64,000 nucleotides of DNA, taken from an uncultured Lentisphaeria bacterium (GTDB lineage: Bacteria; Verrucomicrobiota; Lentisphaeria; Victivallales; Victivallaceae). Positions 10,393 to 24,244 of this stretch are shown here, piece by piece; the stretch's first letter is position 1, and each line of letters opens with the position of its first letter. The position numbers and the translations under genes are program-made. The DNA lies in contig CASFVA010000006.1 of NCBI GenBank assembly GCA_949298075.1, forward strand, positions 1-64,000, given 5' to 3'. The notes below the pieces were generated by a model. That model ran no database searches, was not told where the DNA came from, and saw only the letters and a program-made list of their open reading frames with translations.

Positions 10393-12453
10393 TTACAACT
10401 CGGCCACGCCGGAGTTGATGCTCTTTTTCACCGCGTCGAACGCCGCCTGGTTTTCCAGTTGTTCCAGCGTGTTGGCGGCATTGGTGAACTTGGTACGCTC
10501 AACCACCTGATCGCCCACCGTGACGCAGATCGTCCCGTCGCTCTCGGGACGCGACGAAAACGCCGCATCCACATCGACCCGGTCGGCCAGCTGATTGTCC
10601 TTGACGTACTGGCAGATCATGCCCAGCAGCAGCTGTCCGGGACAGTTCTGCTGTTTGGCGCAGATGGTCACTGTGATCGGCAGCCTTTTCGCCGCCGTGC
10701 CGCGCATGACCGGAATCTTGGCGTCAAAAAGCTGGCTGCGGTTCTGATAAACCGTGTGCAGCAGCGTGTGCGCCTCATGCGAACCGGGATGTCCGCCGAT
10801 GTGCTCCTCGTAGCAGCGCTCCACCAGATAGTTTTCCTGCGATTTCTGAACCTGATGGGTCTTGTCCGCCGCATAGAGGCCCTGCTGGCGCTTGCGCCGG
10901 ATCTCGTCGGTAACGCCGTTGGGCTGACCACCGCCGGAAATACAGCCGCCGGGACAGGCCATGACTTCGACAAAGTCGTATTTGACTTCTCCGGAGCGCA
11001 TCGCGTTGATCAGTTTTTTGGTTGCGGCCAGACCGTGCACCACAGCAATCCGGATCTCCCTGCCGGCAATATTCAGGGTCGCATCCTTGAGCTTATCCAT
11101 GCCGCGCACCATCTTGAAATCGACGTTCTCCAGCGGTTTGCCCTGAAGTTTTTCAGCCGCAAACCGCAACGCCGCCTCCATCACGCCGCCAGACGTACCG
11201 AAAATCACTCCGGCGCCGGTCGCAAATCCCATCGGCATGTCGAAAGCCGAAGGCTCCAGATCGTTGAGATTGATGCCCAGCGACTGAATCATGCGCCCGA
11301 CCTCGGTCGTGGTGATGACAGCATCGACTTCCGGAACGCCGTCCACCGCGTACTTCGGCAGCTGCGCTTCGAATTTCTTGGCGGTGCAGGGCATAATCGA
11401 AACGACATACATGTCCTCGCGCCGGCAGCCGAGCTGTTCCGGCAGCACCGTCTTGGCGATCGAGCCGAACATCGCCTGCGGCGAACGGCAGCTCGACAGG
11501 TTGGGCAGCAATTCGGGGAAGTAGATTTCAGCGTATTTCACCCACGCCGGACAGCAGCTGGTGAACAACGGCAGCTTGCCGCCGTTCGAAAAGCGGTCGA
11601 TAAACTCCGTCGCCTCTTCGAAGATCGTCATATCAGCCGAAAAACTGGTGTCATACACATGCTTGAAGCCCATCAGCTTGAGCGCGGTCACCAGTTTGCC
11701 GGCCACGTTCTGGCCCGGCTCAGCACCGAAATATTCGCCGAGTCCGACCCGCACCGCCGGGGCGATCTGAACCACCACGGTCTTGCTCTTGTCATAGAGC
11801 ATTTCCCAGACCCGGTTGCGGTCCTGACGGGGAATGATTGCTCCGGTCGGACACACCGCCGCACACTGCCCGCAGTTCACGCACTCAACCGCGCCGAGCG
11901 CCGAATCAAATGCCGGGGCCACCTTGGCATTCGAGCCGCGGTTGGCAAAATCAATCGCACCGATGCCCTGGATTTCCGAACAGACCCGGACGCAATCGCC
12001 GCACAGCACACACTTGTTGGGATCGCGCTGCAGCGATGGCGAGGAGTTGTCGATCGGCGCGTTGACCTCACGCCGTTTGTAACGGATTTTTTCAACTCCG
12101 AGCTGACGGGCAATCCGCTGCAGGGTGCAGTCGTTGCTGCGCACACAGGTCGGACACTCCGTGTCGTGGTTGGCCAGTAGCAGTTCGACACTGATCTTGC
12201 GCATCGCCCGGATCTCCCTGGTCTCGGTCAGAATCACCATGCCGGGCGCCGGCGCCGTCGAACAGGCAGCCATGATGCCTTTGCCTTCAACCGCAACCAG
12301 GCAGAGCCGGCAGGCTCCGTAGATGCTCAATTCAGAGTGATAGCAGAAAGTCGGAATTTCAATTCCCGCCTTGCGGATCACTTCCAGCAGGTTGCGTTCA
12401 TTGGTGAACTCGACTTCCTGTCCGTTGACGGTCAATTTATTGACGGTAGCCAT
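10393..12453 (-). CDS. hydA: NADH-linked [FeFe]-hydrogenase, catalytic subunit HydA
   Basis: A 686-residue group A [FeFe]-hydrogenase that makes or oxidises H2 in the cytoplasm. Domains in order: [2Fe-2S] domain (Cys37, 48, 51, 64); His-ligated [4Fe-4S] (His96, Cys100, 103, 109); two-cluster ferredoxin domain (Cys148-158 and Cys191-201); and the H-cluster domain with FTSCCPAW near 298-304, MPCTAKKFEA at 354 and MACPGGCISGGGQP at 498. The proton-relay Cys (Cys300) is present, so it should be catalytic. A C-terminal extension of about 130 residues follows. With HydB and HydC it matches the trimeric enzymes that use NADH together with reduced ferredoxin (bifurcating or confurcating). No hydE, hydF or hydG maturase gene lies in the window. 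Confidence 0.95.
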   Translation of the reverse strand: MATVNKLTVNGQEVEFTNERNLLEVIRKAGIEIPTFCYHSELSIYGACRLCLVAVEGKGIMAACSTAPAPGMVILTETREIRAMRKISVELLLANHDTECPTCVRSNDCTLQRIARQLGVEKIRYKRREVNAPIDNSSPSLQRDPNKCVLCGDCVRVCSEIQGIGAIDFANRGSNAKVAPAFDSALGAVECVNCGQCAAVCPTGAIIPRQDRNRVWEMLYDKSKTVVVQIAPAVRVGLGEYFGAEPGQNVAGKLVTALKLMGFKHVYDTSFSADMTIFEEATEFIDRFSNGGKLPLFTSCCPAWVKYAEIYFPELLPNLSSCRSPQAMFGSIAKTVLPEQLGCRREDMYVVSIMPCTAKKFEAQLPKYAVDGVPEVDAVITTTEVGRMIQSLGINLNDLEPSAFDMPMGFATGAGVIFGTSGGVMEAALRFAAEKLQGKPLENVDFKMVRGMDKLKDATLNIAGREIRIAVVHGLAATKKLINAMRSGEVKYDFVEVMACPGGCISGGGQPNGVTDEIRRKRQQGLYAADKTHQVQKSQENYLVERCYEEHIGGHPGSHEAHTLLHTVYQNRSQLFDAKIPVMRGTAAKRLPITVTICAKQQNCPGQLLLGMICQYVKDNQLADRVDVDAAFSSRPESDGTICVTVGDQVVERTKFTNAANTLEQLENQAAFDAVKKSINSGVAEL

Positions 12454-12485: not shown

Positions 12486-14381
12486 TTAAATCCCCTTGAT
12501 CGCGTCGAAACGGCAGGCCGCCTTGCAGGCTCCGCACTTGATGCACTTGGTGCCGTCGATCACATGCGGCTCCCGGACCTTGCCGGAAATCGCCCCCACC
12601 GGACACTTGCGGGCGCAGGCGGTGCAGCCCTTGCATTTGGCCGGATCAATCTCGGGCCGGGCAAGCGCCAGACACTCGCCGGCCGGACAACGTTTGTTCA
12701 AGACGTGCTCCTCGTATTCCTTGCGGAAGTAGCGCAGCGTCGAAAGCACCGGATTCGGCGCCGTCTTGCCCAGGCCGCACAGCGAACCCAGCTGCACCGC
12801 CTTGGCGGTCTCCTCCAGCAGGTCAAGGGTTTCCGCCGTGGCCTTGCCGTGGGCGATGTCATCCAGCAGCGCCAGCATCTGCTTGGTGCCCTCGCGGCAG
12901 GGTACGCACTTGCCGCAGGACTCGTTCTGAGTGAACCGCATGAAGAAACGGGCGACACTCACCATGCAGGTCTGCTTGTTCATGACCACCAGTCCGCCGG
13001 AGCCGACCATGGCGCCGACACTCTTGAGCGAGTCGAAGTCCAGGGGCAGATCCAGCATTTCCGGGGTGAGACAGCCGCCGGAGGGTCCGCCGATCTGAAC
13101 CGCCTTGAAATCCTCGCCGGTAACTTTGCCGGTGTTGTCGGTGACGCCGCCGCCGATGTTGTAGACGATCTCCCGCAGCGTCGTTCCGAACGGCACCTCG
13201 ATCAACCCGGTGTTGGCCACATGGCCGGTCAGAGCGAAGGTCTTGGTTCCCGGTGATTTTTCAGTGCCGACGCTGCGGTATTTCGCCGCTCCCTCGCGCA
13301 TGATGAACGGCACCGAGGCCAGCGTCTCAACGTTGTTGATCACCGTCGGTTTGCCGTAGAGGCCGTGCTGGGCCGGGAACGGCGGCTTGGGCATCGGCAT
13401 GCCGCGCTTGCCCTCCACCGAAGCAATCAGGGCGGTCTCCTCGCCGCAGACGAAGGCGCCGGCGCCCTCCATCACCCGGATCCGGAAATTGAAATCGGTT
13501 CCGAAGAGCCCTTCTCCGAGCAGTCCGTGCTGTTCAGCGCTCTCGATCGCCCGGCGCATGCGCTTGACCGCCAGCGGATACTCCGCCCGGACGTACACCA
13601 CACCCTCGTCGGCACCGATCGCCCGGCCGGCCACCATCATGCCCTCCAGCACGGCATGGGGATTGCCTTCCATGACCGACCGATCCATGAAAGCTCCCGG
13701 GTCGCCCTCGTCACCATTGCAGATCACATACTTCTTGGGTCCGGGCGACGCCAGGGTGAACTTCCACTTCAATCCGGTCGGGAAACCGCCGCCGCCGCGG
13801 CCGCGCAGGCCGGCGTCGATCATGGTCTGACAGACCTGCTCGGGAGTGTATTCGGTCACCGCCCTGCGGACACCCACATAACCGCCGCAGGCAATGTATT
13901 CTTCAATGCAGTCGGGTTCGATTGTGCAGTTCTTGAGCACCACCCGCGACTGCCGGGCGTAGAACGGAATTTCGTTTTCGTGCCGGCAATGTTCGCCGCT
14001 GGCCGGATCGACGTAGACCAGGCGCTCGATGATTTCGCCGTTGATCAGCGTCACGTTGACGATTTCGGCGGCGTCAGCCGCCTTGACATGGCAGTAGAAA
14101 ATGCCTTCGGGTTCAATGCGCACCAGCGGTCCCATCTGACAGAATCCCTGACAGCCGCTCTTGGAAATGTAGGTGCCCTCAAACGGGTGCTCCAACTCGC
14201 CGTTGAGTTCGATTTCGACCGGCAGCCCGGCGCGCTCGATCTCCTTGACCAGCGCGTCGCGCAGCTCCATCGAACCGTTGGCGATGCAGCCGGTACCGCC
14301 GCAGATGATGATCCGGTGCGCCAGTTTCGACACCGATTTGTTGTATTTCCCGGTGATTTTTTCCAGATTGATATTGTTCAT
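12486..14381 (-). CDS. hydB: Hydrogenase NADH-binding flavoprotein subunit HydB
   Basis: A 631-residue NuoF-like subunit. An N-terminal thioredoxin-like [2Fe-2S] domain (Cys28, 32, 77, 81) is followed by the FMN/NADH module with GRGGGGFPTGLKW and CGEETALIASVEG, then the [4Fe-4S] ligands in SCGKCVPCREGTKQM. Two C-terminal [4Fe-4S] sets (CKGCTACARKCP and CIKCGACKAACR) are the fusion typical of HydB, and are absent from plain NuoF. It oxidises or reduces NAD(H) and passes electrons to HydA. AGGAGA precedes the ATG. It lies 17 bp after hydC and 32 bp before hydA. Confidence 0.95.
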   Translation of the reverse strand: MNNINLEKITGKYNKSVSKLAHRIIICGGTGCIANGSMELRDALVKEIERAGLPVEIELNGELEHPFEGTYISKSGCQGFCQMGPLVRIEPEGIFYCHVKAADAAEIVNVTLINGEIIERLVYVDPASGEHCRHENEIPFYARQSRVVLKNCTIEPDCIEEYIACGGYVGVRRAVTEYTPEQVCQTMIDAGLRGRGGGGFPTGLKWKFTLASPGPKKYVICNGDEGDPGAFMDRSVMEGNPHAVLEGMMVAGRAIGADEGVVYVRAEYPLAVKRMRRAIESAEQHGLLGEGLFGTDFNFRIRVMEGAGAFVCGEETALIASVEGKRGMPMPKPPFPAQHGLYGKPTVINNVETLASVPFIMREGAAKYRSVGTEKSPGTKTFALTGHVANTGLIEVPFGTTLREIVYNIGGGVTDNTGKVTGEDFKAVQIGGPSGGCLTPEMLDLPLDFDSLKSVGAMVGSGGLVVMNKQTCMVSVARFFMRFTQNESCGKCVPCREGTKQMLALLDDIAHGKATAETLDLLEETAKAVQLGSLCGLGKTAPNPVLSTLRYFRKEYEEHVLNKRCPAGECLALARPEIDPAKCKGCTACARKCPVGAISGKVREPHVIDGTKCIKCGACKAACRFDAIKGI

Positions 14382-14398: not shown

Positions 14399-14911
14399 TT
14401 AGTTGGCCGCTTTTTCCGCAGCGATGATTTCATCGACGATCTTCTCAATCTTGTCCGGAGTGGACTGACCGTGCACTTCGTCATCGATCACCACCACCGG
14501 CGCCAGTCCGCAGGCGCCGAGGCAGCTGACCAGCTCCACCGTGAACATCAGATCGTCGGTGGTGCGTTTGTCCTCGCCGAGGTTGAGCTTTTTGTACAGC
14601 ATATTGAGAATGCCGTGCGACTTCTTGACGTGGCAGGCGGTGCCGTCGCAGAGCCGGATGATATGCCGGCCTTTCGGATTAAGCGAAAAATGCGCGTAGA
14701 AAGTCGCCACCCCGTACACATGAGCCACCGGCACGTCCAGCGAGGTGGCCACATAGCTGATGATGTCGCGCGACAGGTACTTGTAGACCTCCTGCACTTC
14801 CTGAAGAATCGGAATCAGCCGCGACGGATCGTTGTGGTTTTTTTCCAGAATGGCGTTCACCGCGCCGAGGTGGCGCACCATGTCCCGGGTTTTTTCAATG
14901 GTTTCCTGCAT
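14399..14911 (-). CDS. hydC: Hydrogenase [2Fe-2S] subunit HydC (NuoE-like)
   Basis: A 170-residue NuoE-family protein, the third subunit of the NADH-dependent hydrogenase. The [2Fe-2S] ligands are Cys88 and Cys93 (CDGTACH) and Cys130 and Cys134 (SCLGACG), with the usual spacing. The N-terminal helical domain is complete. AAGGAGT stands before the ATG at 14911. It is 48 bp downstream of the phosphatase gene, so the structural hydrogenase genes appear to share a transcript with the regulatory genes upstream. Confidence 0.95.
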   Translation of the reverse strand: MQETIEKTRDMVRHLGAVNAILEKNHNDPSRLIPILQEVQEVYKYLSRDIISYVATSLDVPVAHVYGVATFYAHFSLNPKGRHIIRLCDGTACHVKKSHGILNMLYKKLNLGEDKRTTDDLMFTVELVSCLGACGLAPVVVIDDEVHGQSTPDKIEKIVDEIIAAEKAAN

Positions 14912-14959: not shown

Positions 14960-16174
14960 TCAAACGTATTTTACATTGACTTTCTTCAGAAAATTCTTTT
15001 CGAGAATGGCCGCCAGCCGCTTGACGATGTTGCGGCGCAGCTCCAGATCCTGCGGCAGCCGCGGATCCTGATGCGCTTCGTTGATCCGGGTGCCGACCAG
15101 AATGTCGATGATGTCATTGCGCAGCATCATGGCCATCATCTGACCGGCGGCATTGTGGTGCCGGACCCCGTTGTCCTCTTCCAGGTAGCGGGCGGTCGCC
15201 GTCAGAGTGAAAATGCCCTCAGTCACCAGGTCTACGCCCTCCATGTAGGAAACCGGCGGCATTTCAGAACTTATGTTCTTGAGATCCATTTCAAGCTTGC
15301 GGTGCAGTTCCCGCGACACAATCTCCGCCGATGTTCCGCCCGCAATGGCGACCTCGCCGTCGAAACCGGCCACCAGCGCGGCGCATTCGGCGTCATCCCG
15401 CCGGTCGTAGGGCGGACCGGTGAACAGCAACATCCGCCGCGGCCGCCGGAAATGCATGGCGGCGCAGGTCATGTCGTCCTTGTTGATCCGTCCCGGCTCC
15501 TTGCGCCGGGCTTCGCAAATCACTTCATCACAGAGTTCCCGGGAGGAGATGTCAGGCTGCCGCGCAATCAGCCGGCGGATGAATTCCGAACAGTTCCGGA
15601 CCCGCCAGCCCAGCGGCCACTCCTTCGACCCCATCCCGGCCTGACTGATGCCGTCGGAGAAAAAAATCAGCCGGTCCGAGGGTTCGACCTGACAGTGGTA
15701 GATTTTCATCGCCCGGTCGTGCCAGCGGGGCGACGCGGCCTCCTCGTACGGCACTTCGAGTTCACGTCCGCCCCGGAACAGCAGAAACCGCGGATTGCCC
15801 ATTTCAATGATCCGGGTGGCGCGACTGATGTCGGCATTGACAATTGTGAAAGTGGCGTAGCTGATCTTGCGCACCTGGCAGATCGGCAGCGCCCCCATCA
15901 TGATCTCGGCGGCATGGACAATGCGGTCGGCGTTCTCGGTGGCGAATTTCAGTGCCATCGTCGCCGTCATCGACGCCAGAATGTTGGCCTTGACTCCGCT
16001 GCCCAGCCCGTCGGAAAGCACCGCGAAAACCCGGCCGTCGCCGCATTTCTGAAATTTGAAAGCGTCTCCGCAAATGCGTTCGCCGTGCTTGCAATACTGG
16101 GCAAACCCGAGATCAATGAAAAGCTCGGGCGCTTCGGCAGGCTCAATGGCAGATTGTACAGTCTCACGATTCAT
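14960..16174 (-). CDS. SpoIIE-family (PP2C-type) serine phosphatase
   Basis: A 404-residue protein. The first 240 residues form a PP2C-like SpoIIE phosphatase domain with metal-binding Asp55-Gly56 (VLSDGLGSG), IFFSDGISQ and KDDMTCAA. Such enzymes remove phosphate from Ser/Thr of partner proteins, often anti-sigma antagonists. About 160 C-terminal residues match nothing I recognise. It follows the sensory hydrogenase gene and precedes hydC. Similar neighbourhoods of phosphatase and PAS-bearing hydrogenase are known for putative sensory [FeFe]-hydrogenases. Its target is not visible here. The start has no clear ribosome-binding site. Confidence 0.85.
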   Translation of the reverse strand: MNRETVQSAIEPAEAPELFIDLGFAQYCKHGERICGDAFKFQKCGDGRVFAVLSDGLGSGVKANILASMTATMALKFATENADRIVHAAEIMMGALPICQVRKISYATFTIVNADISRATRIIEMGNPRFLLFRGGRELEVPYEEAASPRWHDRAMKIYHCQVEPSDRLIFFSDGISQAGMGSKEWPLGWRVRNCSEFIRRLIARQPDISSRELCDEVICEARRKEPGRINKDDMTCAAMHFRRPRRMLLFTGPPYDRRDDAECAALVAGFDGEVAIAGGTSAEIVSRELHRKLEMDLKNISSEMPPVSYMEGVDLVTEGIFTLTATARYLEEDNGVRHHNAAGQMMAMMLRNDIIDILVGTRINEAHQDPRLPQDLELRRNIVKRLAAILEKNFLKKVNVKYV

Positions 16175-16239: not shown

Positions 16240-17958
16240 TCAGGTTCCGGAATCCTCCGTATCGGCGTAATCCTCGGCAATCGAACGCAGCAGAATTTCC
16301 GTTTCGGCCATGTGTTCGCCCAGCTTGCAGGCGATGTCCTGCACGGTGGCAAGGTTTTTGTCGATGACTTCCCGGGCGCGGGCGGCGATCTGTTCGCGCT
16401 GGAACTCCGTGCTGGTGACGTCGAACAGCATGGCGCCGACCACCTGGCCCGGTTCAATGTTGAAAATGTTTATGCTCAGCAGCCGCTTGCCCACCCGGAA
16501 CATGTCACGCCTCAATTCACTCCGGGTTTTGATGACCTCCTCGAAGAGTTCGGAGAACGGCACCAGGGTTTCCAGCGCCGCGCCGGCCATGCCGGGCGCC
16601 GCGTCAAAGACTTCGACGGCGTCGGGGCCGGAAAGCTCCGCAAACCGCCGGTTGCACTCGATCAACCGCAGTTTGGCGTCCACGATCACCACCGCCGCCG
16701 GAATGCAGCGCAGCATCGCATTGGATTTCTTCTGGGCCAGCTTGCGCAGATAGGAGACACACATGTTGGGTTCCGCCTTGCCGGCCAGCAGTGCCCGGGC
16801 GAAGTTGGAGCAGGTGTCATAACCGCAGCCGCCGCAGTTGAGCTCATCCTCGGGACTGGTCTTGCCGACCGAGCGCAGAGCCTGGCGGATGGCCTGCAGC
16901 GTCGGCTTTTCAGTTCCCACCGGATCCGCGGCGTACCGGATTTCAATGTCCTCGGGCTCGTGATCCGGAATGACGGAGTCAATCCGCCGGTTGCGGATGA
17001 TCCGCAGCCGCTCCAGCAGCCCGGGTGAATTGTGCTCGGTGCCGGGACCGTGAACGCAGCCGCCGACACAGGCCAGCGTCTCAATGAACACCGGCTCGCG
17101 GATGTCCTGCGGACGCAATCCCTCCAAAGCCTGACGCAGCGCCGGAAGTCCGGACACCACGGCAAAATTGACGTGATCGCAGCCGGCATGCGCCCGGATC
17201 GTGTCGTTCATGCCGCCTTCAACCGGATACACCGCCCCCTCTTCGGCTTCAGCCAGAATGAACTTGTCCCCGGGACCCGGTTCCAGGGCCCAGGGATCAA
17301 TCCGCATTTCCTTGAACCACTGTTTGAGTCGCGGATAAAGCATCGTCAGCGTGATGAGTTCCGGATGCCGGTCGGCCTCGTTTTTCTTGGCGATGCAGGG
17401 GCCGATGAACACCACCTTGATGTGGTCACCCAATTTTTCGCGGAGCAGTTTCGCATGAGTCAGCGCCGGAGACAGCACCGGAGAAATCGAATCGGCAAAA
17501 TCCGGCAGGTACTTGCGGATGAAATCCACCGCCACCGGACAGGCCGACGAGATTTCCACTCCGCTGCGCCGTTCGCGCAGCCGGCGCGCCACCTCGGAGG
17601 AAACCACCTGCGCTCCCAGCGCCGTCTCGCTCACTCCGGCAAAACCGAGTTTGCGCAGCGCCGCCACCATCCGGCCCGGCGGCACTCCCTTGAATTCACT
17701 GACCCACGACGGCGCCAGCGAAGCATAAACCGGGGCCTCTCCCTGGAGCAGCTGCCGCGCCCGGCCCATGTCGTCGCGGACCTTTTTGGCGTGAGCGGGG
17801 CAGACCTCGACACAGTGTCCGCAGGCCACGCACAATTCGGGAATCACCGAAGCATGCGCGCCTTCGACTTTAATCGCCTTGACCGGACAATGCCGGACGC
17901 ATTTGAAACAATCCTGGCATTCGGTGTCAACTGTGAATATGGGGTAACTGTGATTCAT
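16240..17958 (-). CDS. Putative sensory [FeFe]-hydrogenase with PAS domain (HydS-like)
   Basis: A 572-residue protein. Two [4Fe-4S] ferredoxin sets come first (Cys14-24 and Cys43-53). A diverged H-cluster domain follows: SSACPVAV (Cys140), GPCIAKKNE (Cys188) and LACVGGCVHGPG (Cys297, Cys301). Then a [4Fe-4S] domain (Cys375, 378, 383, 400) and a PAS domain (about 415-515) with a helical tail. All four H-cluster Cys ligands remain, but the proton-relay Cys of catalytic enzymes is Ala139. This layout is that of the group C sensory hydrogenases, thought to sense H2 and signal through the PAS domain. The ATG at 17958 overlaps the stop of the preceding gene by 3 bases and is preferred over an upstream start at 18054 that would add unrelated sequence. 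Confidence 0.88.
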   Translation of the reverse strand: MNHSYPIFTVDTECQDCFKCVRHCPVKAIKVEGAHASVIPELCVACGHCVEVCPAHAKKVRDDMGRARQLLQGEAPVYASLAPSWVSEFKGVPPGRMVAALRKLGFAGVSETALGAQVVSSEVARRLRERRSGVEISSACPVAVDFIRKYLPDFADSISPVLSPALTHAKLLREKLGDHIKVVFIGPCIAKKNEADRHPELITLTMLYPRLKQWFKEMRIDPWALEPGPGDKFILAEAEEGAVYPVEGGMNDTIRAHAGCDHVNFAVVSGLPALRQALEGLRPQDIREPVFIETLACVGGCVHGPGTEHNSPGLLERLRIIRNRRIDSVIPDHEPEDIEIRYAADPVGTEKPTLQAIRQALRSVGKTSPEDELNCGGCGYDTCSNFARALLAGKAEPNMCVSYLRKLAQKKSNAMLRCIPAAVVIVDAKLRLIECNRRFAELSGPDAVEVFDAAPGMAGAALETLVPFSELFEEVIKTRSELRRDMFRVGKRLLSINIFNIEPGQVVGAMLFDVTSTEFQREQIAARAREVIDKNLATVQDIACKLGEHMAETEILLRSIAEDYADTEDSGT

Positions 17959-18204: not shown

Positions 18205-18858
18205 TCACCTCTCTTCGGTATTCTGGGGAAGATGCCGGTTGATTTTCACGGAAAGCACGGCAAAACCGCCGGCGATCACCTCGCGCTGAAGCAGCACGTC
18301 GTCGGGAACCTTGAGGCAGACGTTGGCAAAATTCCAGAACGCCTTGACGCCGCAGGCCACCAGTTCGTCAGCCACCGACTGGGCCGCTGCCGACGGTACG
18401 CAGACAATGGCAATGTCAGGACGCGCCCCGGCAAGCCGCGCCGTCATTTCCGCCACCGGCAGCACTGTATGGCCGTGAATGCGGGTGCCGATTTTCCGTT
18501 CATCGACGTCAAAAACCGAAGTGATGCGCAAACCGTATTCCGAAAATTCCTCATAACCGAGAATGGCGCTGCCCAGCGACCCGGCCCCGACCAGACACGC
18601 TTCCCGCGAACGGTTCCAGCCCAGAAAGCTGCGGATGCCCTCAATCAGTTCGTCGGTTTTATAGCCCACGCCGGGATGGCCGTTGACGCCGGTAAGCTCA
18701 AAATCCTTGCGCACGATGATCGGATCCAGATTTGCGTACTCAGCCAGCTTGGTGGTCGAGGCAAACGTCTCTCCGGCGGCGTGCATCATGACCAGTTTAT
18801 GGAGATAGGTCGGCATCCGTCTGACTGACGGCGAATTCTGCAATTTGAATCTACCCAC
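18205..18858 (-). CDS. rex: Redox-sensing transcriptional repressor Rex
   Basis: A 217-residue Rex repressor. An N-terminal winged helix (about 1-80, with TKLAEYANLDPIIVRKDFE) is followed by a Rossmann domain with the NADH-binding GAGSLGSAIL near residue 90. Rex leaves its operator when NADH/NAD+ is high, which usually de-represses fermentation and hydrogenase genes. The GTG at 18858 is chosen because AAAGGGGG stands four bases before it; an upstream ATG at 18939 would add 27 residues unlike the family and lie in the promoter. It is the first gene of the hydrogenase operon, so autoregulation is likely. Confidence 0.93.
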   Translation of the reverse strand: MGRFKLQNSPSVRRMPTYLHKLVMMHAAGETFASTTKLAEYANLDPIIVRKDFELTGVNGHPGVGYKTDELIEGIRSFLGWNRSREACLVGAGSLGSAILGYEEFSEYGLRITSVFDVDERKIGTRIHGHTVLPVAEMTARLAGARPDIAIVCVPSAAAQSVADELVACGVKAFWNFANVCLKVPDDVLLQREVIAGGFAVLSVKINRHLPQNTEER

Positions 18859-18918
18859 GACGCCCCCTTTCCAAACCTGCCGGTTCCGGCTTTCGGTTCC
18901 GTAATATAGATATTTTTT

Positions 18919-18958
18919 TATCTTGGTATAAGATAGCACCCCGCCAACGTTTTTTCAA
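18919..18958 (-). promoter_or_regulatory. Promoter of the rex-hydrogenase operon with overlapping palindrome
   Basis: On the minus strand TTGAAA (18953-18958) and TATCTT (18930-18935) are exactly 17 bp apart. A perfect inverted repeat, TATCTT-GGTAT-AAGATA (18919-18935), covers the -10 box and the presumed start point. It is well placed to be a repressor operator, most simply for Rex, though it does not match the common Rex consensus with TTGTTAA half-sites. Confidence 0.65.
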
Positions 18959-19041
18959 GACCGAAAAAACGCTTTTTTCCGCCGTCCGCAAATAAAAATT
19001 CCGGGCCCCCGCCGCCGCGCCGGCCGACCGCGCAACTGCCG

Positions 19042-22060: not shown

Positions 22061-24142
22061 TCACTCCTCCTTGAGACGGCCGAAAATATTGCCGTATTTC
22101 TGTTCATTGAGCGCCTCGACATAGGCGCTGATCTTGGTCTCGGTGCTGCAGGGATCAATGGTGGTGTCCACACAGTCGCCGTCGAGCACCAGCAGCGGAA
22201 CCGCCGCCTGGTTGAGCTCCTCGCGCAGGTGTTTGATGAAGCTGCTGTCAGCCATCGAACAGCGGCCGAAACCGTGATTGTAGAGAATGCATCCGTTGAT
22301 TTTGAACTTGCGTCCCTGCTCGGCAATCGAACGCACCCGCAGATCCGGATCCATGAAGCCGGTCGTCAGCAGTTTGCGGGCCAGCGAACGGTAGGGATCG
22401 GCCGGATCCAGCGGCTCCCAGCCGATGAAGTTGACTTCTTCAAACACGATCGAGGCCCGCTGCCGCAGTTCGAGAAAATCCAGCAGCGTCCGGTCGTAGA
22501 ATGGCGGCAGGTGCAGCCAGAGCAGCCGGTGGGTGTCGGAAAAAGTCAGTCCGTGCTTTTCTTCGCTCAGGGCCAAGAGTTCCTCGTACAGCTTCTTCTG
22601 GATGGCAGTGAGTTCAGGGCGCCCCCAGAGCTGACTGAAAATCGTTGCGAAATAGATCATCTGTCCGCCACGGACCAGCGGCGGGTTGGCACAGCGCAGT
22701 TCGTTGCACAGCAGCGAATAATGCCGGGCCTCGTTGCTGTGCCGGCAGGCTTCGGCCAGACGCCCGGCCGACATGGCCAGACCGGTGCGTTTTTCCAACA
22801 TCCGGACGGAACGCTCGAGATCCTCGGCCAGCACTTCGACGTTGAAATCGCCGGCGCCGCCGGCGGCCGGAGTGTGCAGGGAAAAGAAGTCCTCTTCCAC
22901 ATGGTAGTTGCGGGCGAGGTCGCGAAAAATGCGTTCGCCCTGCTGGCAGGGCTGCGAAGTGGAGACGATCGCCGCCGGCGGCGGCAGTTCCACGCCCTCT
23001 AGCACACGCAGAAACGAACAGGTTTCACCGGAAAAACCCTTGCAGGCCGCCTGATCGAAGGCATGCTTGACTTTGCGCTGGCTCCGGGCGAAAAGCGCGG
23101 CGTAGGTTTCGAGTGTCAGCGACCGCACGCCGAGCGCATTGAGCAGTTCGGCCGGGAAGAACAAATTCCGCCACACCAGCGGACCTCGACCGCGGCCGAG
23201 AAAATCCCGCCGGGTCGTCCGGGCCCGCAGACCGGCCGACTCCAGCGGCAGGTCAGGAACCACCAACCGGGAACCGTCCTCCAGACGTCCTTTGAGCTCC
23301 GAAAAACTCAACGCGAGACAGGCCGCGCCCAGCGCGCCCATCACGCCGTGAAATTCCGGAATGACGATGTTGTTTCCGTTAATCTCCCGCAGATAATAGG
23401 CCACCGCCCGGTTCGAGGCGACGCCGCCCTGAAAGACAATGTCGCCCCGATATCCGAGAAACAGCTCGCCCACTCCGGACATCACCGTGCGCGCCTGCGC
23501 CCGGCAGGCTCCACCGATAATGTCGCCGAGCGGGAAGCGGTTCTTGAACTTGTTGATTGAAGTGGCCGACAGCACCGCGCAGACCGAGGAAAACTCCAGG
23601 TTGCTGTCGTAATTGACCCGGGAGGCCATCTCCTCAATCGGCACATTGAGTTTGGCGGCGACACTGTCGAGAAAAGCCCCGGTGCCGGCGGCGCAGATGC
23701 CGCTCATCTTGTAATTCCACATTTTCATGCGGTCGTTGAAAACCATGGCCTTGCTGTCCTGACCGCCAACGTCCAGAATCGCCTTGCAGTCAGGGTAATA
23801 GTGGCGCGCACCGGCCACGTGGGCAGTGACTTCGCTGACCCGGAAGTCATAAGGCAGAAAGTCATGGGTGTCTTCGACGATCTGGCTGCCGGTGACCACG
23901 GTGCAGACAATGTCCTCCAACCCGCGCAGGCCGGCGTCGAGCAGGAATTTATCCACCGTCTGACGCAGCTGGCCGAAGTTGCAGGCGCCGCATTTGGAGC
24001 AGACTCCGGAACACCGGACGCGACCGGTATCCACCGGCCGGGTCCGCTGATAAAGAGTCTGGCGGACTTTGCCGCGTTCATTCATCAGAACCGCTTTAAA
24101 TGTAGTCGATCCGATGTCGATACCGAGATATAATTTTTCCAT
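22061..24142 (-). CDS. Acyl-CoA dehydratase activase fused to a 2-hydroxyacyl-CoA dehydratase-like domain
   Basis: A 693-residue fusion. Residues 1 to about 275 are a BadF/BcrA-type ASKHA ATPase (GIDIGSTTFKAV, LDVGGQDSKAM, CAAGTGAFLD, FQGGVASNRA) of the kind that injects an electron into 2-hydroxyacyl-CoA dehydratases at the cost of ATP. From about 330 a HgdB/D-like domain follows with Cys-containing segments (STSQPCQQGERI, NHGFGRCSMADS, DGDCVDTTIDPC) that may bind a second Fe-S cluster. An extra Cys set (Cys44, 48, 51, 54) sits near the N-terminus. Substrate is unknown. The ATG at 24142 is preferred as the reading start; 24151 is possible. Confidence 0.8.
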   Translation of the reverse strand: MEKLYLGIDIGSTTFKAVLMNERGKVRQTLYQRTRPVDTGRVRCSGVCSKCGACNFGQLRQTVDKFLLDAGLRGLEDIVCTVVTGSQIVEDTHDFLPYDFRVSEVTAHVAGARHYYPDCKAILDVGGQDSKAMVFNDRMKMWNYKMSGICAAGTGAFLDSVAAKLNVPIEEMASRVNYDSNLEFSSVCAVLSATSINKFKNRFPLGDIIGGACRAQARTVMSGVGELFLGYRGDIVFQGGVASNRAVAYYLREINGNNIVIPEFHGVMGALGAACLALSFSELKGRLEDGSRLVVPDLPLESAGLRARTTRRDFLGRGRGPLVWRNLFFPAELLNALGVRSLTLETYAALFARSQRKVKHAFDQAACKGFSGETCSFLRVLEGVELPPPAAIVSTSQPCQQGERIFRDLARNYHVEEDFFSLHTPAAGGAGDFNVEVLAEDLERSVRMLEKRTGLAMSAGRLAEACRHSNEARHYSLLCNELRCANPPLVRGGQMIYFATIFSQLWGRPELTAIQKKLYEELLALSEEKHGLTFSDTHRLLWLHLPPFYDRTLLDFLELRQRASIVFEEVNFIGWEPLDPADPYRSLARKLLTTGFMDPDLRVRSIAEQGRKFKINGCILYNHGFGRCSMADSSFIKHLREELNQAAVPLLVLDGDCVDTTIDPCSTETKISAYVEALNEQKYGNIFGRLKEE

Positions 24143-24215
24143 AAGAAGCATTCCGTGTCCGGTTTGGTCTGGAATTTGTCCGCCAAGCGGGCTAACCCGA
24201 CATGGCCATCGTAAT

Positions 24216-24244
24216 AATATACCATATCCCAAAGTTTTTTGCAA
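24216..24244 (-). promoter_or_regulatory. Sigma-70-type promoter for the dehydratase-lysA operon
   Basis: On the minus strand TTGCAA (24239-24244) and TATATT (24216-24221) are 17 bp apart, about 75 bp before the fusion gene. The -35 box overlaps the palindrome at 24241-24254, so a regulator bound there could block it. Confidence 0.65.

Follow-up and report, generated by a model that had tools for sequence, protein, structure and literature searches.

A putative group C3 sensory [FeFe]-hydrogenase with alanine at the proton-relay position in the hydABC operon of an uncultured Lentisphaeria bacterium

Gene content of the locus

The stretch of DNA analysed here, 64,000 nucleotides long and referred to as the window, carries on its minus strand an operon with the gene order rex, [2Fe-2S] ferredoxin, hydS, SpoIIE-type PP2C phosphatase, hydC, hydB and hydA (Table 1). 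HydA scores 762.1 bits against NF040763, just below the cut-off of 765. The likely start of rex is a GTG at position 18858. In another part of the window, positions 22061-24244 encode one 727-aa protein with a BadF/BcrA-type ATPase (activator) and a 2-hydroxyglutaryl-CoA dehydratase D-component domain.

The hydS reading frame can be extended in frame to 604 aa. We favour the 572-aa form, because this start gives a 4-bp overlap with the stop of the ferredoxin gene before it and because most HydS relatives align from its residue 1.

Table 1. Features of the hydS operon, with positions in the window
Feature	Position	Strand	Basis
hydA, group A catalytic subunit, TSCCP (C300/C301)	10393..12453	-	TIGR02512, 506.8 bits (cut-off 405.95)
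hydB (NuoF-like)	12486..14381	-	PF01512, PF10589
hydC (NuoE-like)	14399..14911	-	PF01257
SpoIIE/RsbU-type PP2C phosphatase, 404 aa	14960..16174	-	PF07228, 57.4 bits
Conserved phosphatase C-terminal domain, residues 244-404 (161 aa)	14960..15445	-	Invariant residues (44 homologues)
hydS, 572 aa, putative group C3 sensory [FeFe]-hydrogenase	16240..17958	-	Start 17958, stop 16240; ORF, Pfam, AlphaFold2 model
HydS long C-terminal helix, residues 515-565, after PAS	16264..16416	-	AlphaFold2 model; conserved sequence
HydS PAS domain, about residues 414-513	16420..16719	-	PAS_8, 24.4 bits (cut-off 21.8)
HydS C-terminal [4Fe-4S] motif Cx2Cx4Cx16C (C375, C378, C383, C400)	16759..16836	-	PF04060
HydS hydrogenase (H-cluster) domain, residues 76-305	17044..17733	-	PF02906, 155.4 bits
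Codon of Leu295 (CpI Met497/TmHydS Ser267 position)	17074..17076	-	Alignment with HydA M498
Codon of Ala139 (proton-relay position, CpI C299)	17542..17544	-	Alignment with HydA C300 and PDB chains
HydS N-terminal 2x[4Fe-4S] segment, residues 11-57 (C14/17/20/24, C43/46/49/53)	17788..17928	-	Pfam Fer4 families
Thioredoxin-like [2Fe-2S] ferredoxin, 81 aa	17955..18200	-	PF01257; 4-bp overlap with hydS start
rex, NADH-responsive repressor	18205..18939	-	NF003994, 233 bits (cut-off 130)
Palindrome GATA-W6-TATC before rex, candidate Rex operator	18909..18922		
Sigma-70-like promoter, extended -10	18930..18958	-	Consensus match only

Domain structure and classification of HydS

HydS has Pfam matches to Fe_hyd_lg_C, FeS, Fer4 and PAS_8. 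The eight cysteines of the N-terminal cluster segment are invariant in 47 aligned HydS sequences. The FeS match covers residues 373-401, and the four cysteines of the C-terminal cluster motif are present in all 153 HydS of a larger alignment. The PAS_8 match itself spans residues 414-454; the end of the domain at about residue 513 is an estimate, and the region has strands and helices in the model. The AlphaFold2 model, made from the 47-sequence alignment, has a mean pLDDT of 86.6, and a Foldseek search of the PDB matched it best to [FeFe]-hydrogenases, including CbA5H, CpI and the HydABC of T. kivui and of T. maritima. The helix at residues 515-565, modelled at a low pLDDT of only about 50-68, is likely to be an output linker.

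Group C3 of HydDB comprises phosphatase-linked, putative sensory enzymes (PMC5037454). Based on its domains and the adjacent phosphatase gene we assign HydS to this group of putative H2 sensors. In brief, it has an H-cluster domain with C140, C188, C297 and C301, followed by a PAS domain, a C-terminal Cx2Cx4Cx16C motif of the kind described in PMC8163306, and a Ser/Thr phosphatase gene next to it. Membership of the catalytic group A was rejected on the residues at the relay (A139), proton-path (V123, R126, P160), M353 (G186) and M497 (L295) positions. The PAS domain rules out group D, the TamHydS type. HydS lacks the HisKA or HATPase_c match that would be expected of the histidine kinase-linked group C1, to which it therefore does not belong; such domains are present in four relatives from the phylum (L051-L054).

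HydS resembles TmHydS of Thermotoga maritima in its relay Ala, the Gly at the M353 position, the combination of an H-domain with PAS, and the presence of another hydrogenase in the same operon (PMC10055695). It differs from TmHydS at the CpI M497 position, where TmHydS has Ser267 and the window protein Leu295, like most HydS aligned here. The gene order of the TmHydS operon is presumably TM1420-1426. With HydS of Ruminococcus albus and HfsABCD of Thermoanaerobacterium the window system shares a partner hydrogenase and a PAS-containing hydrogenase that has a Ser/Thr phosphatase next to it; unlike these, the window operon begins with rex, and the hydrogenase it serves is hydABC in place of a group B enzyme. 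The slow group D enzyme TamHydS likewise has a relay Ala and a C-terminal Cx2Cx4Cx16C cluster (PMC8163306, PMC10407848), but no PAS domain. Its proton-path residue E252, at a group A Val position, appears to correspond to Met250 here, whereas its E289 position seems to be kept as E293.

The relay position and the H-cluster ligands

The H-cluster motifs of HydS are SSACP (A139, C140), GPCIAKK (C188) and LACVGGCVHGPG (C297, C301). A preliminary description of the sequence had proposed that the proton-relay cysteine is replaced by Ala139, in SSACP against TSCCP of HydA from the same operon, and that the ligands Cys140, 188, 297 and 301 are kept. Our alignments bear this out, and the TSCCP of HydA, the catalytic paralogue encoded alongside, is confirmed too. 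A139 shares a column with HydA C300 in MAFFT alignments of 119 and 251 rows, and phmmer aligned SSACP to TSCCP of T. maritima HydA (7p5h) and of a D. desulfuricans hydrogenase (9gnk). It also aligned SSACP to a chain with TSACP (8rxj); the entries 8bj7 and 8bj8 are titled as D. desulfuricans C178A mutants. The equivalence of A139 with CpI C299 follows the numbering of PMC10055695 and PMC8163306, together with the motif. A different cysteine at the relay position would have spoken against the proposal, and none of HydS falls in that column; its other cysteines are Cys260, 418, 435 and 544 or belong to cluster motifs.

The larger alignment consists of 153 HydS, 30 group A and 68 group B sequences. 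In the relay column HydS have Ala in 137 rows, Cys in ten, Thr in three, Ser and His in one each, and a gap in one, and groups A and B have Cys throughout (30/30 and 68/68). Wherever a HydS row has a residue in an H-cluster ligand column, that residue is Cys (152/152 or 153/153). The Ala139 observation is therefore right, and it is a property of the whole HydS family. As a side observation, three of the 30 group A HydA rows read TSCSP (L052:443-2320, L054:10676-12409 and L179:4068-5810); they have the relay Cys, and the next Cys, an H-cluster ligand position, is Ser.

Alanine at this position is already published for sensory hydrogenases and is the normal state of a known sensor family. TmHydS has Ala131 there, and the sensory enzymes in HydDB have about 43% Ala and 17% Cys (PMC10055695); relay Ala in group C and D enzymes is also stated in PMC8163306 and PMC10407848. 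The second and third motifs had been described as sensory-type too. This did not hold: in the group B rows inspected, the second motif is GPC[VI]AKR and the third is similar, so these motifs are not diagnostic of sensors.

Relay loss and slow turnover

It had further been predicted that HydS has a bound but slow active site on account of the missing cysteine. Low activity of HydS is plausible, because the characterized relatives TmHydS (PMC10055695) and TamHydS (PMC10407848) are slow. That the missing cysteine is the cause is not supported: in the TmHydS variant A131C, H2 oxidation fell by 40% and H2 production fell by 20%, from which the authors deduce another proton route (PMC10055695).

One alternative to the sensor reading developed below is that loss of the relay Cys makes HydS slow, and that slowness is the selected property. 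The column contrast between HydS (Ala in 137 of 152) and groups A and B fits this idea, and a 2022 review ascribes slow turnover to the lack of the conserved cysteine (PMC8924675). Besides the A131C result, however, the rest of the group A proton path speaks against it. The equivalent of E279 is Glu in none of 152 HydS, that of E282 is acidic in 35 of 152, and that of S319 is Ser or Thr in nine of 152; the window HydS has V123, R126 and P160 at these positions. The ten HydS with a relay Cys (L116, L133, L145, L160, L161, L170, L173, L176, L177 and L179) have neither Glu at the E279 position nor an acid at the E282 position, and only L133 has Ser at the S319 position. A candidate alternative relay is E247. 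Of the 153 HydS, 91 have Glu and 35 have Asp at this position; in group A, 29 of 30 sequences have Ser or Thr.

The occurrence of these ten also speaks against this alternative. In a quick tree with SH-aLRT support only, built from 144 HydS retrieved as relatives of the window HydS and six group B rows as outgroup, with column 139 left out, the relay-Cys label requires six changes, five of them forced by well-supported branches. Some relay-Cys rows are nested in Ala clades (Gastranaerophilales, Cloacimonadota, a Margulisbacteria/Desulfovibrio pair and Bacteroidales). Three Bacillota rows lie near the base of the tree, and their Cys may be ancestral. It should be noted that the contig of L133 is titled Desulfovibrio, whereas in the tree this HydS pairs with one from Margulisbacteria, beside Gastranaerophilales sequences; transfer or mis-binning may explain this. 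Another residue, S267, matters far more in TmHydS (PMC10055695). We regard the argument from relay loss to slowness as weak, and the alternative built on it as unlikely.

Other positions of the active-site pocket

The column of Leu295 is Leu in 142 of 153 HydS. Apart from one gap in each group, groups A and B have Met there (29 of 30 and 67 of 68 sequences). In TmHydS, the change S267M at this position lowered H2 oxidation by about 95%, the largest effect among the changes tested, and the M497 position is described as not well conserved in sensory enzymes (PMC10055695). Our collection of HydS favors sequences close to the window protein, and for this reason the predominance of Leu and that statement need not conflict. 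At the CpI M353 position HydS has Gly186, and Gly is found in 150 of 153 HydS. This residue is not sensor-specific, because group B has Gly or Ser there in 68 of 68 rows.

The changed pocket could also be read as a sign of decay, with HydS a degenerate hydrogenase that is inactive and has lost the ability to bind the H-cluster. Ala at the relay together with Leu at the Met497 position would suit such a protein, since a CpI M497L variant without a properly integrated [2Fe] cluster is cited in PMC10055695. Against this, the ligand cysteines are kept in all lettered HydS rows, and TmHydS binds the cofactor with Ala131, Gly177 and Ser267 in place (PMC10055695). We consider a degenerate HydS extremely improbable.

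The phosphatase and hydrogenase-free cassettes

The phosphatase has the PF07228 domain and the fold of a SpoIIE/RsbU-type PP2C enzyme, with matches to 3pu9 (Z 25.9, 221 residues aligned) and SpoIIE 5ucg (Z 25.0). Residues D37, D55, D174, D233 and D234 are invariant among 44 homologues, and we take them to be the metal-binding residues expected of the PP2C family. Unlike SpoIIE and RsbU, which it resembles in catalytic domain and fold, the window phosphatase has an extra conserved C-terminal domain. Residues 244-404 match no Pfam family up to an E value of 1, and the matches of a whole-chain fold search were filled by the PP2C domain.

This C-terminal domain is found in 57 of 194 genomes of the phylum, 55 of which also have a HydS match. 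The remaining two, G004 and G181, encode a ferredoxin, a PAS-helix protein and the phosphatase without a hydrogenase domain. In G004 (L183:6723-9461) the cassette has rex in front, and in G181 (L182:6626-8595) it is preceded by a metF-like gene by our own reading; both phosphatases have the same C-terminal domain. These cassettes indicate that the system does not always report H2. Short PAS-helix frames (198 and 257 aa) occur only in G004 and G181 among 374 genomes; elsewhere the frames have at least 569 aa. We found no hydrogenase-free cassette in 28 named genomes, where all 12 matches have frames of at least 559 aa, and a literature search returned nothing on acetogen relatives of the cassette.

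A further possible difference from SpoIIE and RsbU concerns the partners of the phosphatase. The genome to which the window belongs, 87% complete, has a single STAS match (24.8 bits), beside an alanyl-tRNA-synthetase-like frame by our own reading, and no anti-sigma-type HATPase_c_2 or RsbW-type kinase over the cut-off, only matches below it. Thus, the usual partner-switch target was not found in this genome.

Distribution of HydS and its neighbors

HydS relatives (E <= 1e-30) are found in 112 of 387 genomes of the phylum and are patchy within the genus of the window organism. By a strict distance rule, a phosphatase lies directly 3' of HydS in 123 of 138 rows (49/59 from the same phylum and 74/79 named). 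For six of the other 15, the phosphatase frame overlaps beyond the rule (L036, L039, L091, L142, L147 and L172); four end at the contig end (L043, L073, L126 and L173), four are the kinase-fused L051-L054, and one (L068) shows no phosphatase. A ferredoxin is encoded upstream of hydS in 44 of 59 rows from the same phylum and 65 of 79 named rows. By distance rules, 31 of the 138 HydS neighbor hydABC and 67 neighbor a group B hydrogenase; the other 40 have neither beside them.

The genome of the window organism encodes five [FeFe] domains. Two are those of the window, two belong to a second HydS and a group B enzyme on contig C57, and one to another HydABC on contig C33. The C57 module (L056:13286-18161 on G000:C57) has the order ferredoxin, HydS, phosphatase, ferredoxin-like protein and group B hydrogenase, and is like hfsABCD. 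Its HydS is 52% identical to that of the window and belongs to a different clade. In another genome (G266:C211:33945-35623) the HydS match falls into two neighboring frames, one covering residues 1-278 and the other 294-566, which may reflect a frameshift or a broken gene.

A candidate Rex operator

The palindrome GATA-W6-TATC before rex occurs at four sites in the 2.33-Mb genome of the window organism, and the reversed control at none. Besides the window site, these are G000:C70:67044-67057, G000:C54:16161-16174 and G000:C32:8789-8802. One site lies 88 bp before the start of adhE (NF010378, 1405.8 bits), one 81 bp before serC (NF003764, 508.5 bits), and the fourth is near a gene with a glycogen-binding module (CBM). 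Across 78 genomes of the family we counted 325 sites against 90 of the reversed control, with more sites than control in 66 genomes and fewer in four. At 53 loci examined, some of them the same place twice, the palindrome was near one of ten query proteins (including Rex, ferredoxin/HydS, HydC, AdhE and SerC) in 17 and had no such neighbor in 36. Several genomes of the same genus without a HydS match also carry it, so it is not specific to HydS.

Rex sites have been predicted before adhE and hfsABCD in T. saccharolyticum (PMC5886521), and the Rex regulon of C. bescii includes a class V aminotransferase (PMC6391272). These reports make Rex the likeliest owner of GATA-W6-TATC, and we propose the palindrome as a candidate lineage-specific Rex operator. 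The canonical Rex operator (TTGTNANNNNNTNACAA, at most one mismatch) has no match in the 64,000-nt window. A perfect inverted repeat with 9-bp arms at 18948-18971 overlaps the -35 of the promoter-like site before rex. It was rejected as an operator, as the same sequence was not seen before rex in 12 relatives scanned.

Proposed signaling

The components, their order, the intact H-cluster ligands and the phosphatase residues can be read directly from the DNA. We suggest that HydS, as a group C3 enzyme, senses H2 for the hydABC operon and signals through the adjacent PP2C phosphatase, and we consider this explanation as a whole probable. It is favored by the domains of HydS, the relay and ligand columns, the adjacent phosphatase, the definition of group C3 and the model and fold matches, and by two related systems: the C3 sensor of R. 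albus, proposed to sense H2 and to act through a Ser/Thr phosphatase (PMC6776011), and T. saccharolyticum, in which strains deleted for the homologue hfsB express more adhE and give a higher yield of ethanol (PMC5707799).

We infer the sensing of H2, the direct coupling of HydS to the phosphatase, the target of the latter and the role of the ferredoxin as follows. H2 would react at the H-cluster in the altered pocket, with Ala at the relay, Gly at CpI M353 and Leu at CpI M497. A change in redox state or conformation would then travel through the C-terminal [4Fe-4S]/PAS region and along the long helix until it reaches the phosphatase, which would dephosphorylate a Ser/Thr-phosphorylated regulator. 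The [2Fe-2S] ferredoxin is a probable third component, and Rex probably controls the entire operon in addition. Some observations weigh against this scheme: H2 does not reduce the C-terminal cluster of the group D enzyme TamHydS (PMC13104023), which speaks against a simple electron relay, no usual partner-switch target was found in the 87% complete genome, and two genomes have the cassette without a hydrogenase domain.

HydS might instead be a slow enzyme, or the point at which electrons enter a larger redox complex that includes the ferredoxin. The intact cluster chain and the ferredoxin gene usually found upstream of hydS would fit such a role, and both TmHydS (PMC10055695) and TamHydS (PMC10407848) do turn over. 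What makes it very unlikely in our view is that nearly all relatives have the PAS domain and an adjacent PP2C phosphatase, and that the second-sphere residues have changed together.

Taking the sensor reading together with the hydrogenase-free cassettes and the palindrome, we tentatively speculate that ferredoxin, PAS-helix and PP2C form a unit that exists with and without a hydrogenase domain. The C3 enzymes would have added an [FeFe] domain as H2 input, retuned at C299, M353 and M497 (to Ala, Gly and Leu) for minimal turnover. The operons would be under a lineage-specific Rex operator, GATA-W6-TATC, common to adhE and serC, and would thereby join H2 and NADH sensing. This joint reading is possible, though doubtful.

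The window HydS leaves the view of sensory hydrogenases unchanged and sharpens the choice of residues to test. Position 295 (CpI M497, TmHydS S267) stands out, being Leu in 142 of 153 HydS here and the site of the largest effect in TmHydS (PMC10055695). The natural HydS with a relay Cys, some of them within Ala clades, are ready comparisons for the A131C result, and the hydrogenase-free cassettes could reveal the role of the PAS-phosphatase pair without H2.
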